Shown: piece after piece, positions 7,693-56,968 of the stretch
How the letters are laid out: the number at the start of each line of letters is the position of its first letter
Position numbering within the stretch: the stretch's first letter is position 1
Position numbers and translations under genes: made by a program
Notes under the pieces: model-generated
Databases searched by the model: none
What the model saw: only the letters and a program-made list of their open reading frames with translations
Told to the model about the DNA's origin: nothing
NCBI GenBank assembly: GCA_034670405.1
Contig: JAXDDX010000056.1
Coordinates: 2,447,001 to 2,511,000 of the forward strand
Origin: Hoplostethus atlanticus
Lineage: Eukaryota; Chordata; Actinopteri; Trachichthyiformes; Trachichthyidae
DNA: 64,000 bases
Reading direction: 5' to 3'

Positions 7693-9324
7693 CAGGTACG
7701 AGCTACGGAGAGCTATTCGAAGTGCTAAGTCACAATACAGGGAAAAGGTGGAGTCTAATTTTCAAGGCTCCAACACCAGGAACATGTGGACTGGCCTTAG
7801 AGCCATCACGGACTATAAGGTGAAGACCAGCAGTGCTGTGCTGACATCTGCATCTTTCCCAGACGAACTTAACACCTTTTACGCACGCTTTGAGAACACC
7901 TTCCCGGCTGTGGAGGTCCCAAAGGCCCAGCTAACAATATCTAGAGCGGATGTGTGCAGAGCCTTCAAAAGGACAAATCCACACAAGGCACCTGGCCCTG
8001 ATGGCATTCCAGGCCGGGTCCTCAAGGCGTGTGCGGTTCAACTGGCGGATGTTTTTACAGACATTTTCAACCTGTCACTGCTCCAGTCCGTGGTCCCCCT
8101 GTGCTTTAAGAAGTCCACAATTGTTCCTGTCCCCACAAAAAATCCAAAGCCCTCTGCCTCAACGACTACCGCCCAGTGGCACTCACCTCCACCATCATGA
8201 AGTGCTTTGAGCGGTTAGTCAAAACCTTTATCACCTCCACCCTCCCTGAATCACTGGACCCCCTGCAATTTGCATACAGACCAAACAGGTCTACAGACGA
8301 TGCCATCTCCCTAGCCCTCCACACTGCCCTTTCACACCTGGACCAGAGGAGCACCTATGTGAGGATGCTGTTTATAGATTACAGCTCGGCATTCAACACC
8401 ATTGTGCCCTCCAAGCTCGCCATCAAGCTCAGGGACCTGGGCCTCAACACCGCCCTGTGTGACTGGATCCTGAGCTTCCTGTCGGGCAGGCCCCAGGCAG
8501 TGCGGGTTGGTACCACCACATCCTCCACCCTGACTCTAAACACCGGCGCCCCGCAGGGCTGCGTGCTCAGCCCTCTCCTGTACTCCCTGTTCACGCACGA
8601 CTGCGTGGCAAAACACAGCTCCAATACCATCATTAAGTTTGCCGACGACACGACTGTCATCGGCCTGATCACCGACGGCGACGAGACGGCCTACAGAGAG
8701 GAGGTCAGAGCCCTGTCATCCTGGTGCCAGGACAACAACCTCCATCTCAACGTCGGCAAAACAAAGGAGCTGATCGTGGACTATAGAAGGGGCCAGAGCA
8801 CGGGACACGCCCCCATCGACATCAACGGGGCGGCGGTGGAGAGAGTCAGCAGCTTCAGGTTCCTCGGTGTCCATATCAACAAGGACCTCACCTGGAACCA
8901 CCACGCCGACATCATCATCAAGACAGCAAGACAGCGACTCTTCTTCCTACGCAGGCTGAGGAAGATCAACATGGACTCCAGGATACTCTGCAACTTTTAC
9001 AGGTGCACCATCGAGAGTATCCTGACTGGCTGCATCTCGGCCTGGTATGGCAGCTGCACCGCCCTCAAACGGAAGGCGCTGCAGAGGGTGGTGAACGCTG
9101 CACGACGCATCACCAGGTCGGAGCTGCCCTCCATGGAGGTCCTCTATCACCAGCGTAGCAGGAAGAAGGCCAGCAAGATCCTTAAGGATCCTTTCCACCC
9201 CAGCCACAAGCTGTTCTGCCTGCTGCCCTCAGGCAGACGGTTCCGTAGCATCCGGACTCGCACCACCAGATTCAAAGACAGTTTTTTCCCACAGGCCATC
9301 AGGCTCCTGAACAAACACACCTGA

Positions 9325-49675: not shown

Positions 49676-51187
49676 TAGGGTGGACTCAGCTAAAATGGGC
49701 CATCATGTAAAATGGGCCAGATAAGGTTGGAGCTTCATAGCCCTTTAAAATTTTACAGCCAATCACAATAACTGATCTTGCATTGTTGCTGCAACACTAG
49801 TTGACATGTAACAATAGTTTTGATTAGTCTGAGGTTGTTAAGGTGGACAGGGACAGAGTGTTACTTTAAGTACATCAGAGAAATTGTATGGTAAGTGAGC
49901 ATGACATAGCAAATTTCACTCATCACTAATAAGGGTGATAAAGCATTTATAAGTAAGCTTACCAACAAAGCAAAATGTTTATAAACAATGTTTTGACAGG
50001 CTCTTTCAAATAAAAAAGTTGAAATTTAAAAAGAAACTTTGATTTTTGTGAAAAAAGTAATTTTAGGTATTGGCCCATTTTAGCTTAACCAGCTAGCTAA
50101 AATGGGCCACGATTTTCAGCTAAAATGGGCCACATACACACACACTCTTACACAGAAGTTACACGGAAATTGAGGGCACAAAACAGGTTCATTGGTAAAA
50201 AAAGTAATTTTAGGTATTGGCCCATTTTAGCTTAACCAGCTAGCTAAAATGGGCCACGATTTTCAGCTAAAATGGGCCACATACACACACACTCTTACAC
50301 AGAAGTTACACGGAAATTGAGGGCGCAAAACAGGTTCATTGGTAAAAAAGTAATTTTAGGTATTGGCCCATTTTAGCTTAACCAGCTAGCTAAAATGGGC
50401 CACGATTTTCAGCTAAAATGGGCCACATACACACACACTCTTACACAGAAGTTACACAGAAATTGAGGGCGCAAAACAGGTTCATTGGTCTAGATGTATC
50501 CAAGTGAAATCTTAACAATCTTAACAAAAAACAACCAAAGGGAAAAAAGCAAAAAAAGCAAATCGCACAAAGCAAGAGTGGCAAACCCCCCTGCACGGCC
50601 TGCCAGAGAGTGTATGGTGACGTGAATGACCCAAAGGATGTTCTACTTTTTAACATAATGTTTGACAAATGTTGACACAAACATGCACCTACACACACAC
50701 ACACAGCTACACACAGTCCCAGAAAGACGCACACACACACACACACACAAAACAGACACAAAGACACTAATGCGCAGAAACACACACCCATACAACATGA
50801 TCAGTTAATTTTTAAATGCATTTTTCAATAAAATATTTGTTCAACTTTTTATTGCATGAAATGCATTTACGGTGTTGTTACTATGGTACACCAAAGACAA
50901 TAGTTAGTGTCAATTTACTGTTAAAATTAAAATGATTTCAGCTGAAATTACTGTGTTGTTCTCTCTTTATATTGGCCCATTTTAACTGAACATTGTGTTG
51001 TAGCTCAAGAGGGAACCTGCTGATACTACTCCAAAACAATTATACTTTTTCACATTTTTTTAACAAATAAATATTTTAGAGACCCATGCCAATTTATAAA
51101 AAAATCATTAGATCTCCTGCATAGCTTATTTGATGGTCTTATAAATAATTTACCAAAAAGTGGCCCATTTTAGCTGACTCCACCCTA
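49676..51187. mobile_element. 1.5-kb non-autonomous transposon with inverted ends and TA flanks
   Basis: The left end GGGTGGACTCAGCTAAAATG continues GGCCA. The right end (51162-51185) is its inverted copy with one mismatch in the first 26 bases. TA lies directly outside both ends (49676-49677 and 51186-51187), which fits a TA target duplication. The motif AAAATGGGCC or its complement occurs 13 times in the element, nine of them in an internal triplicated unit. No transposase frame is present; the 116-codon minus-strand frame at 50441-50791 is made by CA repeats. Superfamily is not determined; Tc1/mariner-like would fit the TA but the terminal bases are not the usual CAGT. Confidence 0.8.
50057..50489. 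repeat. Three tandem 146-147-bp units inside the element
   Basis: Units start at 50057, 50204 and 50350 with gtaattttaggtattggccc. The copies differ at only a few positions (for example gggcaca versus gggcgca, and acggaaatt versus acagaaatt). Each unit contains a perfect 15-bp inverted pair TGGCCCATTTTAGCT...AGCTAAAATGGGCCA with a 9-base spacer, and one further AGCTAAAATGGGCCAC. Confidence 0.95.
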
Positions 51188-51556
51188 GTAAAACATTCCA
51201 TGCTCTACTCTCGCTATGTTTTGGGAATTTAGACCGCTGTAATGTTGACCTCGATGTGCACTTTCAAACCAAAACAAATTGAAACAAGCTCTGTTGGGCA
51301 CGAGTGTTATTTGGGTGATGAGAATGAGCTCATAGCCAAAAACAGTCACATAACTACTGGAATGATGAACCTCATTATAAGACCCTGATAGTCACTTAAT
51401 GTAGTGAGAGTACATTACAATGAAATAAAAAAAACATTAAGATGTTTTCAACTTGTGTCTCCATTATATAAACTAGACCATCTCTGTTTTGTGTACAAAT
51501 GCCTGTATTCATGTCATTCTTGTGTTGTTTTTTTACCACTGTATTTTGACCATCAG

Positions 51557-51636
51557 GTTTGCTGGAATGGGTAACCTGCTAAAAGTCCTAACAAGGGAAA
51601 TAGAGAACTATCCACACTTTTTCCTGGACTTTGAAA
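51557..51636 (+). CDS. cyria: cyria alternative first coding exon 2a
   Basis: Acceptor ccatcag|GTTT at 51556/51557, ATG at 51567-51569, donor GAAA|GTAAGT at 51637. It encodes MGNLLKVLT followed by [14 protein letters not shown] and ends in phase 1. This is the N-terminus I recall for mammalian CYRIA. Coding starts at 51567; the first ten bases are 5' UTR. Confidence 0.88.
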
Positions 51637-54600
51637 GTAAGTCTGGTGGAGGAGAAGAAGAGGGGGAGAGAGATGGGAAGAGAGAGATGGTGGGAGGGGA
51701 AACTAGGTTTAACTTTCTCTTCTGTCAGCAGGTCTCAATGACGAAGCCACGGAGGAGTCTGCTTATGCTCCTCTTTTCTCCCTCGCTTTTTTCCCCCGTT
51801 TCTTTTACTCTTATCGTGACCTCATGCTCTTTCAGCTCTTAGGTCTGCCGTTTCTCCCATCTGTTCTGATAACTTATGAATGACTGTTTTAACACCACAT
51901 ACACTTTTCTTTTTCCTCCTCTCTCTCTCTCTCTCTCGCCTTTTTTTCTCTCTTGCAGAAACCAAATGGGGAATCTGTTAAAAGTGCTCACTTGCACAGA
52001 GCTTGAACAGGGGCCAAACTTTTTCCTTGACTTTGAAAGTGAGCACAGCTTATGCCTGCCTTTCTGCCTGGCCATTACCCTCCCCCCCTCCAACACCCTT
52101 TTTTAAATCTGTCTTTAGCAGCTCTGTATCCAAGGTCAAGGGTCATTCTATTCAGTCAACCTTCTGCCTTGGAATTTCTAATGCAGGCCCTGATGGCTTT
52201 TTATAATTCATGATTGATTCAATTACTCCACCCTGCGAATGAAGCTGACCCTTGACCTTTGCTATCTACTATTACTAACTCCTCTGCATGTCCCAATGTG
52301 TGTACTAATAATAAGAGTCCCTTGCTGTCATCTTACCGAAGTGTGTTACATTCACATCTAAACTTACCAGTAATGTATTTACTAACAAATCATCATTGTT
52401 ATATTTAACAAGGTTTTTTTCTCTGCCATTGATCCTTGTTGCTCTTTCTGCATAGTACTAGTACTTGTAGTCAGAACTATCTATACATTATTCATTATCA
52501 GTTCATTATATAAATGTATAATGAACATGAAAAACATTCATCCATCCATTCATGCATGCCAGTTGTCACACTGTAGCTTATATTCATTGTTGACAAAATA
52601 TTAAATTCTAAACTAAATTACTGTACCTTCTTACTCCACTGCCTTATAATGTTCACATAATAGAGACAAGATAGCTGAACATTTAACACAGCAAATAAGT
52701 CTGCTTTGGCCTTTTTCAAAAACCTCCTGCAGAAATAAACACAAACGCCTCCGCAGTGGCATTTCAACTTCAACTTTGCCTCTCACAATGCTGCCAACCT
52801 CAGGCTTTGTTTATTCAGCAAGAGGAAATGATGGGAATGGAAAGGTTTTGAAATGCAAAATAGACTCCAGAAACAGAATTTTAATATCTATGATTTTCTA
52901 TATTTAGAGTAGCTCTTTCTGTGTGCATGTTAGCCAAAGCATATGCCATTATATGAGATTGGTAGTGAAAATTAAACTAATTTATCAAATTTATCAAAAT
53001 TAATTAATTATAGTATAGATAGATAGATATTGATTATTTGGAGATGTATGGTTTCTGCAGAACATTGATGATGTTTTACTGTGCCTTGCAAAAGTAACAG
53101 AAATTGTAGATTACTGAGCTGACTATAGTTACATTTTTCACCAAAAAATGCACTCAAATATAGATTCTTGATCTGTAAAGGCAAGAATAAAGTGCTATGT
53201 AATGATTTTGTATCACCCTATGCTGTGTGTGTGTGTGTGTGTTAGATGCCCAGCCGACGGAAGGTGAGCGTGAGGTGTGGAACCAGGTGAACTCAGTCCT
53301 CCAGGACTCTGAGAGCATACTGTCTGGCCTGCAGGCATATAAGGGAGCAGGCCAGGAGATCAGAGATGTGAGTAACACGCAGACAAAAAAGATAAATGTT
53401 TGATAAGACTGTACGGCTGTCAGAAGCGTCAGTGTAGCACAGTGAAAACGCCACTCACCCTCAATCACTTTGTTTTGGGGTTTTTTTCAATTTCTCTTAT
53501 AAAGCACTTTGTAACACTGTTTGGTAAGGGCTCTATAGAGGAAGGTTATTATTTTATTATAAACGAGTCCCTGGTCCTCTTGCTCTTGAGTTTTGGACTC
53601 CAAGGGTGTATTCACACTGAGCATATTTGGAGTGGTTTAATCGAACTCTGGAGCCTTTAGTTTGGAGTAGAGAAGTGAGAACAATGCCGTTCAAAATCGG
53701 GTGGCACAAATAACCAGCCTGGAAATAACTGTTTCTAAGCAAACTGCTGTGCAATTTATTAGGAGTGAGAACATAATCCAAACTAAGAACTGTGATGGCC
53801 CCAGACTGTGACGGATTCTGATGCTGTCCTACTGTGTGTGTCCCATCCAGGCAATTCAGAACCCCAATGACCATCCGCTGCAGGAACGAGCCTGGAACGC
53901 CGTCTGCCCGCTGGTCATCAGACTCAAGAAGTTCTACAGTTTCTCGCTCCGTCTAGGTACGATTGAGTCGTACAGTAGAACAAAACAGCCAAGATTTTTT
54001 TTTTTCTAAAATTCAAAAGATATGCTCCTTATCTTATTTTGAACCCCTCAACTTCCATCAGACAGGTTGTTTGTAAGCATTGTATTTTGAGTTAATTTTC
54101 CATGTAAAGGTCAATCTCGTCAATAATCTGTGTGAAAAATACCCCTAACGGTACAGCGGCACAATTGTGGCTAAAATGATAATCCTGATTATTTTGCCAG
54201 ATATTGTGAGCACAATTATTTTTGGTCTTTAGGAAGAAAATAATTTAACTATATAGTGGACATTCTCCAGCACCAGCGTTTTGCAGTATCTATGGCAGAG
54301 ATCGGACACCTTCACAACAACTAACTACTTGTCTGTATGTGTTTGTCGATAGAGGAGACGCTACAGAGCTTGCTGGAGTCCCTGACATGTCCACCCTACA
54401 CTCCCACTCAACACCTGGAGAAGGAGCAGGCGCTAGCCAAACAGTTCGCTGAGATCCTCCACTTCACGCTGCGCTTTGACGAACTCAAGGTATGTTGGAG
54501 ACACTGCAGAACAGAGCAGTTAAGCACACTCAATAACACACACATACAGTTTCTCAGTCACTCCTCCCTTCACTTACTCACTCAATGCTACATACACTTC

Positions 54601-56968
54601 ATCAAAATATGTGACAGCTCTGTCAAACAGCGGTAGGTAAACGCAGTAGTGTACAAGCTTTGACTGTTTTACTCGTTTTCCTTCAGATGAGAATTCCTGC
54701 CATCCAGAACGACTTCAGCTACTACAGAAGAACCATCAGTCGAAACCGGATAAACAACATGAATGTGAGTTGTCCACAAAACTTTAAGTTTATTCCGATC
54801 CCCATTAGCTGGCACTCAGGGACAGCTCTGGGTGGCAGTAGTCTTTGATATTTATTTTAGTATCTGCAATGCTTTCTCAGTCTAAATTGGGAAACAACCA
54901 TAGACTGACACTTAAGAAAAGGTGGCTATGATGATTATTTTGTAAGTTGTTTGATTTTAACATTGCACCCTCTCTCCTTATCTCCTATTTTAATTCCTCT
55001 TATTACTTCTCTATCATAAATGATCACATCAGGGTCACAGGGATATTTTGTTACATTTATTGTCAGTAATAACAGTAAAGTTATTTTATTGTTCCATTTA
55101 TTTGGGGGGAACTTCATTTCTGTGACCTGGGTACCTTCCCAGTCTTACTTTCAGTATCGGGTCCAGTGCCAGTTTATTTTCTTACTAGTCCAGCCAAATT
55201 AGGCCAGAAATAGGTGGTTCAGATTTGTTCCAAGTTATGGCTGTCTAGACATTTTCCAACATTGTGGGCTGGCTGCCACTGCTGAAGACACTAGTGTATT
55301 GCCCATGGAAAAAATAAAGTCTGTTAAAGTACTCCACCTCTTGTTCATCTGTATTGTTTGCTGCTGTGTCTACAGTTGGATATCGAGAGCGAGGTCAACA
55401 ATGAGATGGCCAATAGGATGTCTCTGTTCTACGCTGAGGCCACGCCAATGCTTAAAACTCTCAGTAACGCAACTACAAACTTTGTGACAGAGGTGAGAGT
55501 GCTACCACTGTCATTCTTTTTACGACTGTGAATGTGACTTGACAAACTTACCCCATAATCGTAGTTTTCTCCCCTGCTCTTACTTCTTTACCTAGGATTT
55601 CTCTGTCATACGTTCCAGGGACACTAATATTTGCATCTGTTTTCATGGCCTAAATAATAGATAATCATTAACCAATATTGTGTCTGGTTCGTCCCCTGCT
55701 CCAGAATAAGACTCTTCCCCTGGAGAACACGACAGACTGTCTCAGCACCATGGCCAGCGTCTGTAAAGTCATGCTGGAGACTCCGTGAGTCAGCCTCATA
55801 CACACTCACTGACATACACTTACAATACACACGTGTACATACACACACCTGCAATTAATCTTTTTACCTTTTATGCCAATATTTATGATTTAAAAATAAT
55901 CAATTGCTCTCAGTTTAGACACTCCCTGTTTCTCTTTAGTTTCCCCTTAAATTGGCCTCTTTTCATGTCCTCTTCCTTCTCTAATTCCATCTCTCTCTCT
56001 CTCCTCTCTCGTTAACCCTTCCCTTTCTCCAGGGACTATACAAGTCGCTTTAGCAGTGAGGACACCCTGTTGTTTTGTATGAGGGTCATGGTGGGGGTCA
56101 TCATTCTTTATGATCACGTCCACCCCAACGGAGCCTTCAACAAGTCCTCCAAGATAGATGTAAGATACTCATACACACTCATGAGCATGCAGAAAACATA
56201 GACATGAACACAAAGCCACAGACACACACACACACACACACACACACATATCAATAAACCACTTCCATATTTGGCTTTTGCCAAAGCGGTGGTTTCATCT
56301 CTATCACATACAGTGCCTTGCAAAATTATACATCCATTTTGCATTTGCATCACCCTCCCACCACCATTTGAAAATACAGAAGGTCAAATATTAGTTTTTT
56401 CTCTCCATTTAGTTTTCATAGTAAAAATAGCCTACCCTAGAATCCCATTGAAACATTGAATTGAAATAACTTAACAGCACAACAAAACATGCAAAAAGTC
56501 AAGGGGTCTGAATACTTTTGCAAGGCGCTTTATAATAACAACACTTTGGACCATGGATCTATTTCTGTGGTGCAGCTCTTCAGTTGCTGCACTGCCCTTG
56601 TGACTCTGTTCATTTCTTCTCAGATGAAAGGCTGCATAAAAGTGCTGAAGGATCAGCCAGCAGACAACGTAGAAGGCCTCCTGAACGCCCTCAAGTAGGT
56701 TCACTGCCCTCACTTTAAATGCTAGCTTTACATCTTGTTGATAACATGGAGAAGGAGCGATAACGTTGGCATAAGTTGTAAGAAGGGGACCTAGAAGGGC
56801 TTCGGTGTTGGCGGGCCCTGTGACTGCCATGTTGTTTATTTTGAAGGTGATGGTCTTCCTAGACATCACACAATTGTTTACCTTCATTGTTTGTGTCTCT
56901 TCAGATTCACCACAAAACACCTGAACGATGAGTCCACTCCGAAAACCATCCGAACGATGCTCCAGTAA
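51567..56968 (+). CDS. cyria: CYFIP-related Rac1 interactor A (CYRI-A/FAM49A), ten coding exons per transcript
   Basis: CYRI proteins bind active Rac1 at the plasma membrane and oppose its activation of the WAVE (Scar)-Arp2/3 actin machinery. I recognise the protein along its whole length (single DUF1394 domain). Exons 51567-51636 or 51966-52038, then 53246-53367, 53851-53956, 54353-54489, 54687-54764, 55376-55492, 55705-55784, 56033-56159, 56624-56694 and 56905-56968 all have GT-AG borders and join in frame to 323 (first form) or 324 residues, the sizes I recall for human CYRIA and CYRIB. The start MGNLLK gives a myristoylatable Gly2. The Rac-binding arginine pair (R160/R161 in CYRI-B) is present as R159/R160 in SYYRRTISR (or R160/R161 in the longer form). 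[23 protein letters not shown] and ISRNRINNM favour CYRIA over CYRIB. No disabling change was seen. Confidence 0.93.
51959..52038 (+). CDS. cyria: cyria alternative first coding exon 2b
   Basis: Strong CT-rich tract and acceptor ctcttgcag|AAAC, ATG at 51966-51968, donor GAAA|GTGAGC at 52039. It encodes MGNLLKVLT followed by [15 protein letters not shown] and ends in the same phase as exon 2a, so either can join exon 3. The sequence is the CYRIB-type N-terminus, one residue longer, with a cysteine at position 10. Both exons are 80 bp long. Confidence 0.88.
53079..53100. mobile_element. Solitary Tc1-like end
   Basis: ctgtgccttgcaaaagta matches the Tc1 terminal word. No partner end was found nearby. 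Confidence 0.5.
53246..53367 (+). CDS. cyria: cyria coding exon 3
   Basis: Starts in phase 1 (completing the Asn codon of ENAQPTEGE) and encodes residues 24-64, ending in GAGQEIRD before GTGAGT. Its acceptor is unusual: the tract before TTAG is (TG)9 instead of pyrimidines. Confidence 0.92.
53606..53815. mobile_element. Interspersed repeat of the TTCACAC family, copy 2
   Basis: Lies in the intron between exons 3 and 4. It matches the copy at 12990-13190 in ordered words (attcacact, gaactctggagc, gtgagaaca, ttcaaaatcgggtggca, aggagtgagaaca.aatccaaac). Confidence 0.6.
53851..53956 (+). CDS. cyria: cyria coding exon 4
   Basis: Phase 0 start after tcccatccag. Encodes residues 65-99 and the first base of codon 100 ([15 protein letters not shown]...FYSFSLRL), donor GTACGA. 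Confidence 0.92.
54150..54225 (+). mobile_element. Fragment of the agggctg family in intron 4
   Basis: Reads cggcacaattgtggctaaaatgataatcctgattattttgcc. It shares gctaaaatgataatcctgat with 31605-31695. Confidence 0.55.
54353..54489 (+). CDS. cyria: cyria coding exon 5
   Basis: Acceptor tttgtcgatag. Encodes residues 100-145 ([20 protein letters not shown]...RFDELK), donor GTATGT. Confidence 0.92.
54687..54764 (+). CDS. cyria: cyria coding exon 6 (Rac-binding arginines)
   Basis: Acceptor ttttccttcag. Encodes residues 146-171 ([19 protein letters not shown]...NNMN), including the double arginine that corresponds to R160/R161 of CYRI-B, which is known to be needed for Rac1 binding. Donor GTGAGT. 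Confidence 0.93.
55376..55492 (+). CDS. cyria: cyria coding exon 7
   Basis: Acceptor gtgtctacag. Encodes residues 172-210 ([20 protein letters not shown]...NFVTE). Donor GTGAGA. Confidence 0.92.
55705..55784 (+). CDS. cyria: cyria coding exon 8
   Basis: Acceptor cccctgctccag. Encodes residues 211-236 ([20 protein letters not shown]...) plus two bases of codon 237. Donor GTGAGT. Confidence 0.92.
56033..56159 (+). CDS. cyria: cyria coding exon 9
   Basis: Acceptor tttctccag. Encodes residues 237-279 ([20 protein letters not shown]...FNKSSKID). Donor GTAAGA. Confidence 0.92.
56219..56248. repeat. (CA)n microsatellite
   Basis: About 14 CA units in the intron after exon 9. Confidence 0.93.
56311..56530. 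mobile_element. Tc1-like MITE
   Basis: The left end is CAGTGCCTTGCAAAATTATA. The right end contains ggggtctgaatacttttgca followed by aggcgctt. Both are the well-known terminal words of fish Tc1 elements in inverted orientation. TA lies on both sides (56309-56310 and 56531-56532). At 220 bp it has no transposase. Confidence 0.8.
56624..56694 (+). CDS. cyria: cyria coding exon 10
   Basis: Acceptor tttcttctcag. Encodes residues 280-302 ([20 protein letters not shown]...) plus two bases of codon 303. Donor GTAGGT follows AA. Confidence 0.92.
56905..56968 (+). CDS. cyria: cyria final coding exon
   Basis: Acceptor gtgtctcttcag. Encodes residues 303-323 ([20 protein letters not shown] then Q) and ends at TAA 56966-56968. 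Confidence 0.93.

Follow-up and report, generated by a model that had tools for sequence, protein, structure and literature searches.

Tandem, probably alternative first coding exons in cyria of Hoplostethus atlanticus and their counterparts in other vertebrate CYRI genes

Tandem duplicated exon substitutions are adjacent homologous exons that are used in place of each other. In human, 236 have been described, 40 of them N-terminal, and close to two-thirds are said to have been present in the vertebrate ancestor (PMC9741552). The main text of that report contains neither FAM49B nor CYRIB, and its supplements may list CYRIB. For human CYRIB itself, two alternative first coding exons have been reported. 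FAM49B isoforms 1 and 3 are both 324 residues long, with differences only among the first 25. Isoform 3 takes its start codon from exon 12, and isoform 1 is the one struck by edits in exon 14 (PMC8872254). In edited HEK293T clones, exon 14 was either lost, shortening the product from 400 to 317 bp, or replaced by exon 12 of equal length. The existence of the isoforms was confirmed by RT-PCR cloning in this 2022 paper, and a small amount of a ~37 kDa protein survived in the exon 14-edited cells (PMC8872254). In the parts on the isoforms, that paper says nothing about homology or great age of the exons or about counterparts in CYRIA or CYRIC, and prints no sequence of them.

Residues 1-25 of CYRI-B take part in membrane binding and had to be left off for crystals (PMC7955166), and myristoylation of the protein is known from the literature. 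The Arg pair of the YYRR stretch was reported to be essential for Rac1 binding, and the Kd of the full-length proteins for Rac1 Q61L is ~13 µM for CYRI-A and ~38 µM for CYRI-B (PMC8236918); these values do not separate an effect of the body from one of the start. The CYRI isoforms themselves are already annotated in public protein sets. Among the open-access literature matches listed, no paper was found that treats a CYRI exon pair as shared by the paralogues or as explaining their N-termini (supplements may hold CYRIB), and no open-access paper was found to contain any of six N-terminal peptide strings. Alternative first exons go unmentioned in passages of a Drosophila CYRI paper and of two reviews, and the corresponding passages of a proteomics paper on ESRP1 mention FAM49A only as a protein level. 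A literature search for splicing regulators of FAM49B gave no paper with FAM49B among the matches listed, which is a weak negative, as these matches came by other terms. A 2010 EST study predicted in silico a normal-tissue cassette exon of FAM49B in the CNS (PMC2941758); this could be the exon pair considered here.

We analyzed a stretch of 64,000 nucleotides of the Hoplostethus atlanticus genome (the window), which contains the cyria gene. Two adjacent exons of this gene, A and C, each carry a start codon, finish in phase 1 and are joined in phase to the same next exon (Table 1). Splice models with AG/GT sites throughout gave complete proteins of 323 residues with exon A and 324 residues with exon C. 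In the preliminary description, two 80-bp exons with good acceptors and donors had been placed at a distance of 322 bp from each other, and this was confirmed; its junctions 51636-53246 and 52038-53246 are likewise correct according to the in-phase models.

Table 1. Positions of the alternative first coding exons, of the other cyria exons in the window, and of the cyric exons of the same genome
Feature	Position	Strand	Details
First coding exon A	51557..51636	+	80 bp; leader 10 nt GTTTGCTGGA; ATG 51567; 23 residues + 1 base
Exon A splice sites		+	acceptor CAG, donor GTAAGT; read from sequence
Intron between exons A and C	51637..51958	+	322 bp
First coding exon C	51959..52038	+	80 bp; leader 7 nt AAACCAA; ATG 51966; 24 residues + 1 base
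Exon C splice sites		+	acceptor CAG, donor GTGAGC; read from sequence
Common second coding exon	53246..53367	+	splice model
Coding exon	53851..53956	+	splice model
Coding exon	54353..54489	+	splice model
Coding exon with YYRR stretch	54687..54764	+	splice model
Coding exon	55376..55492	+	splice model
Coding exon	55705..55784	+	splice model
Coding exon	56033..56159	+	splice model
Coding exon	56624..56694	+	splice model
Last coding exon, stop TAA	56905..56968	+	splice model
cyric exon A	L003 9205-9284	-	80 bp; AG/GT sites
cyric exon C	L003 8312-8391	-	80 bp; AG/GT sites

Both forms begin with Met-Gly in MGNLLK, so that Gly2 is kept, and they share the pattern MGNLL-K-L and the end FFLDFE. The difference is confined to residues 10-18, where exon A gives REIENYPH and exon C gives CTELEQGPN. 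When A is joined to C, the product reads FFLDFEKTKWGIC and then stops, at the eighth codon after exon A. Thus, the two exons are unusable together in one productive mRNA. The polypyrimidine tract is strong before exon C (89%) and weak before exon A (63%). The body of the protein matches Pfam PF07159 (CYRIA-B_Rac1-bd) at residues 18-319 with an E value of 1.9e-142 in a run of the A form. The preliminary description had called the rest of the gene CYRIA-like; a tree of the body placed the window in a CYRIA clade of 65 proteins (support 0.975), not with CYRIB or CYRIC, the clade being labelled with the window itself among the references.

At 53224-53245, just before the acceptor of the common exon, lies a run of TG dinucleotides, possibly length-variable, in place of a pyrimidine tract (53% pyrimidine). 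A tandem repeat scan of 51000-54000 and an Rfam scan gave 0 matches each. Elsewhere in the window, an open frame at 8110-9321 of the forward strand contains a reverse transcriptase domain (Pfam RVT_1, E 1.4e-31) followed by an ALKBH8_N match, and is a LINE-like retroelement piece.

Exons A and C were then compared with each other. They are identical at 52 of 77 aligned bases; the flanks are identical at 40/100 (100 bp upstream) and 21/45 (100 bp downstream). Sixteen residues are identical between the 23 of exon A and the 24 of exon C, and phase and exon length are equal. Judged from these alignments, the likeness of the two exons is greater than chance. For the 16 shared codons, dN was 0.03 and dS 1.75, which argues that A and C are old copies whose shared ends have been held by selection. 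The pair has two of the features by which tandem duplicated exon substitutions are recognized, adjacency and a homologous region of at least seven residues (here 16 identical); a third, the occurrence of each exon in its own coding transcript, would be predicted from the frame.

When the DNA of exon A was searched against the 633-Mb genome, one other match was found (contig C139; the window is contig C56). This is cyric, the third CYRI paralogue, and it also has an A exon of 23 residues, then 813 bp, and a C exon of 24 residues. Its ATG codons follow leaders of 10 nt (A) and 7 nt (C). These lengths, as well as the order of A then C, match those of cyria. Between cyria and cyric, dN/dS was 0.14/0.81 for exon A and 0.10/1.62 for exon C, rough values from 23-24 codons each. 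By these substitution estimates, both copies are coding and under constraint.

These data bear on the possibility that this fish has kept exon C, or exon A, only as a relic in decay. The weak polypyrimidine tract before exon A and a possible loss of C from mammalian CYRIA (see below) would fit such a relic. However, the frames are intact with AG/GT sites, nonsynonymous changes between cyria and cyric are well below synonymous ones in each exon, and C-type CYRIA is listed in mackerel, barramundi and tilapia as well (P0001, P0002 and P0004, among the matches listed). Decay of either exon is not supported, and we regard it as very improbable.

To describe the N-terminal types across the family, proteins were collected with three queries: the C form of the window, an invented arthropod-like probe, and a chimera of a C-type start and an amphioxus body. 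The best 120 of 1753, of 1786 and of 1707 matches, respectively, gave 256 distinct proteins, or 257 with the window. The tree was built on the body without the first exon, proteins were sorted by the nearest chosen reference, and the type was called by pattern from the first unit only. Each database representative stands for a cluster at 90% identity, and such a cluster usually absorbs the isoforms of a gene, so that the counts tell of presence and not of frequency.

Both types were present in all three paralogue clades among the matches listed. The CYRIA clade of 65, with the window counted as A, held 39 A, 18 C and 8 unreadable starts. The CYRIB clade (34 proteins, support 0.999) held 7 A and 27 C, and the CYRIC clade (53 proteins, support 0.837) held 24 A, 28 C and 1 unreadable. 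The lampreys, which formed no clade of their own, had both types as well (Petromyzon P0229, C; Lampetra P0240, A; among the matches listed). The best match of the C form was a Scomber FAM49A isoform X2 with 96% identity and a C-unit start (best 120 of 1753); other fish CYRIA representatives among the matches listed start with the A unit. Beyond the three fishes mentioned above, C-type CYRIA was listed in birds, a snake, coelacanth and elephant shark.

The preliminary description had inferred that the first coding exon was already duplicated in the ancestral gene, that the paralogues later settled on different choices, and that this fish keeps both. The first part is supported, as both types occur in CYRIA, CYRIB, CYRIC and the lampreys. 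It is also right on the mammalian starts: REIENYPH is the start of the mammalian CYRIA representatives, and CTDLEQGPN that of human CYRIB isoform X1 (P0109). Fixation by paralogue agrees with the mammalian CYRIA representatives, 13 of which were picked by name and 11 were readable, all 11 being A, and with the 27 C of 34 in the CYRIB clade among the matches listed. In contrast, either type is found in the CYRIB of birds and mammals: a pigeon model contains A and C (P0076), pheasant has A (P0206) and C (P0096), whales have A (P0202 and P0204), and goat (P0107) and human (P0109) have C. Moreover, human CYRIB was reported with two alternative first coding exons (PMC8872254), and both types occur in CYRIC as well as in the CYRIA of birds and fish. 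Thus, fixation of one choice in each paralogue is contradicted for CYRIB and very improbable as a whole, and mammalian CYRIA alone looks fixed for A; from these starts, the C exon may have been lost there. Since both starts are widespread in vertebrate CYRI genes, this fish is not special in keeping them. The earlier interpretation as a whole is therefore partly supported.

The units were further compared by hand alignment. Between CYRIA, CYRIB and lamprey, the C units agree at 23-24 of their 24 residues, and the lamprey C unit is equal to the CYRIB C unit at 24/24, whereas A and C within one gene share 13-16. The A type varies by paralogue, CYRIA and CYRIB having 17 shared residues. In lamprey, the A unit (SKDIENIPR) has 16 residues in common with amphioxus and 18 in common with CYRIA A. 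Position 10 is Cys in the listed C units of CYRIA, CYRIB and lamprey, and Tyr in 23 of the 28 C units of CYRIC; where Cys10 is present it may be acylated, as the preliminary description suggested. The teleost CYRIC C units are fairly divergent, with 19/24 residues shared with CYRIA C, and this would be expected if the exon had been duplicated independently in each paralogue, or if gene conversion had mimicked the likeness. Such an origin does not agree with the closeness of the C units across CYRIA, CYRIB and lamprey relative to that of A and C within a gene, with the equal leader lengths of 10 (A) and 7 (C) in cyria and cyric, or with the order of the units, A preceding C in all five models that contain both. 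On unit similarity and leader lengths, independent duplication was rejected as unlikely; indeed, we consider it extremely improbable.

The C-type motif was absent from the invertebrate group among the matches listed (103 proteins: 102 A-like and 1 unreadable). The named members of this group are mostly arthropods, together with amphioxus (4 representatives), a hemichordate and an echinoderm; an amphioxus cluster of 13 members could hide a C isoform, and tunicates and hagfish lie outside the listed set. Because C is absent from the listed amphioxus, hemichordate, echinoderm and arthropod proteins and present in lamprey, the sequences indicate that the C exon most likely originated by tandem duplication in the interval between the amphioxus and lamprey splits.

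Most readable models carry one unit. Among the predicted models in the matches listed, five carry both full units, always with A before C (P0003 of CYRIA, P0076 of CYRIB, and P0068, P0071 and P0072 of CYRIC), and a sixth carries both in part: P0011, a bird CYRIA model marked as low quality, has A and then a C unit without its own start. In the five models, 10-35 extra residues lie between the units, as would be produced by gene predictions that read on into intron or leader; such models attest to the exons and not to transcripts.

In human CYRIB, the loss of exon 14 is 83 bp, and a CYRIB A unit with 24 codons, a leader of 10 nt and a single final base would have this length. We infer that human exon 14 corresponds to the C unit and exon 12 to the A unit, because human X1 (P0109) is C type, the two exons are equal in length, and A-type CYRIB is found in whales, pheasant and pigeon. 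Given the surviving ~37-kDa protein (PMC8872254), other edits at human exon 14, taken as C-type, may be incomplete. The human gene resembles the present locus in having two equal-length alternative first coding exons in one CYRI gene (PMC8872254), and differs from it in that the gene studied here is a fish cyria.

The pair could be real and yet be chosen by alternative promoters or 5' leader exons, not by competition of internal exons in one pre-mRNA. Both are first coding exons and could ride on different leaders, and the database models show many different upstream extensions before each unit. On the other hand, both exons have acceptors, C with its strong polypyrimidine tract 322 bp after A, and in human, exon 12 replaces exon 14 in clones from a single RT-PCR product (PMC8872254), which fits a choice made after a shared upstream exon. 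We therefore consider selection by promoters rather unlikely, while giving it real weight.

Two CYRI-B chains of known structure differ in the type of their first exon: PDB 6YJJ starts with MGNLIKVLTRDIDHNASHFFLDFE and is A type, and 7AJK starts with the C type. We take 6YJJ to be the whale-shark CYRI-B entry of an earlier structural study. Its extra N-terminal residue fits the serine described there (PMC7543656). In that study, most differences between whale-shark and human CYRI-B were at residues 10-18, a region called poorly conserved, and the section on these residues does not mention exon choice (PMC7543656). When like is compared with like, whale-shark RDIDHNASH and pheasant/whale RDIDHNAAH are one residue apart, and the C unit of elephant-shark CYRIB (P0077) is identical to the human C unit. 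Since 6YJJ is A type, human X1 and 7AJK are C type, and like units are nearly equal, the difference at residues 10-18 is best read, from these sequences, as one of exon type and not of drift; the wider conservation statement of PMC7543656 also rests on an alignment figure, perhaps with invertebrates, whose stretch varies. AlphaFold models of the two starts were of low confidence over residues 1-21 and 1-16, with shallow alignments of 15, and structure prediction was discarded as a comparison of the two starts.

Based on these results, we consider it very probable that A and C form a tandem-duplicated swap pair of early-vertebrate origin that was inherited by the paralogues and most likely tunes membrane behaviour. 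An ancestral A-like exon would have been duplicated in tandem in an early vertebrate, on the stem between the amphioxus and lamprey branches, and the copy would have become the C type. Gene duplication would then have carried the A/C pair into CYRIA, CYRIB and CYRIC. Each mRNA would take either A or C, the frame enforcing exclusion, and exclusive use is what the joined frame predicts for this fish. The swap would alter residues 10-18, a loop between helix 1 and helix 2, and leave the Rac1-binding body unchanged. The choice would then most likely tune how, where and how long the myristoylated Rac1 buffer sits on the membrane; a search of the literature turned up no measurement of how the start swap acts on the membrane or on Rac1. 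A more specific proposal is that the pair is an ancestral membrane switch of vertebrate CYRI, in which A would be a myristate-only anchor, C would add an acylatable Cys10 and a different loop, and splicing would set the time that the Rac1 buffer spends on ruffles and macropinosomes. We consider this two-position switch speculative and rather unlikely.

CYRI-A and CYRI-B have usually been compared as proteins with different N-termini. The protein start usually treated as a difference between paralogues looks like a choice of exon that is old and open within each gene, and the swappable first exon pair is probably also present in human CYRI. If either gene can choose its N-terminus by exon, two variables have been mixed in comparisons of the paralogues, and, should the two-position switch be true, differences between CYRI-A and CYRI-B, such as that in Rac1 Kd, would partly be exon differences. 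According to the HEK293T study, the second start can stay functional when only one of the first coding exons is edited (PMC8872254). What is swapped is the end by which a Rac1 buffer binds the membrane.
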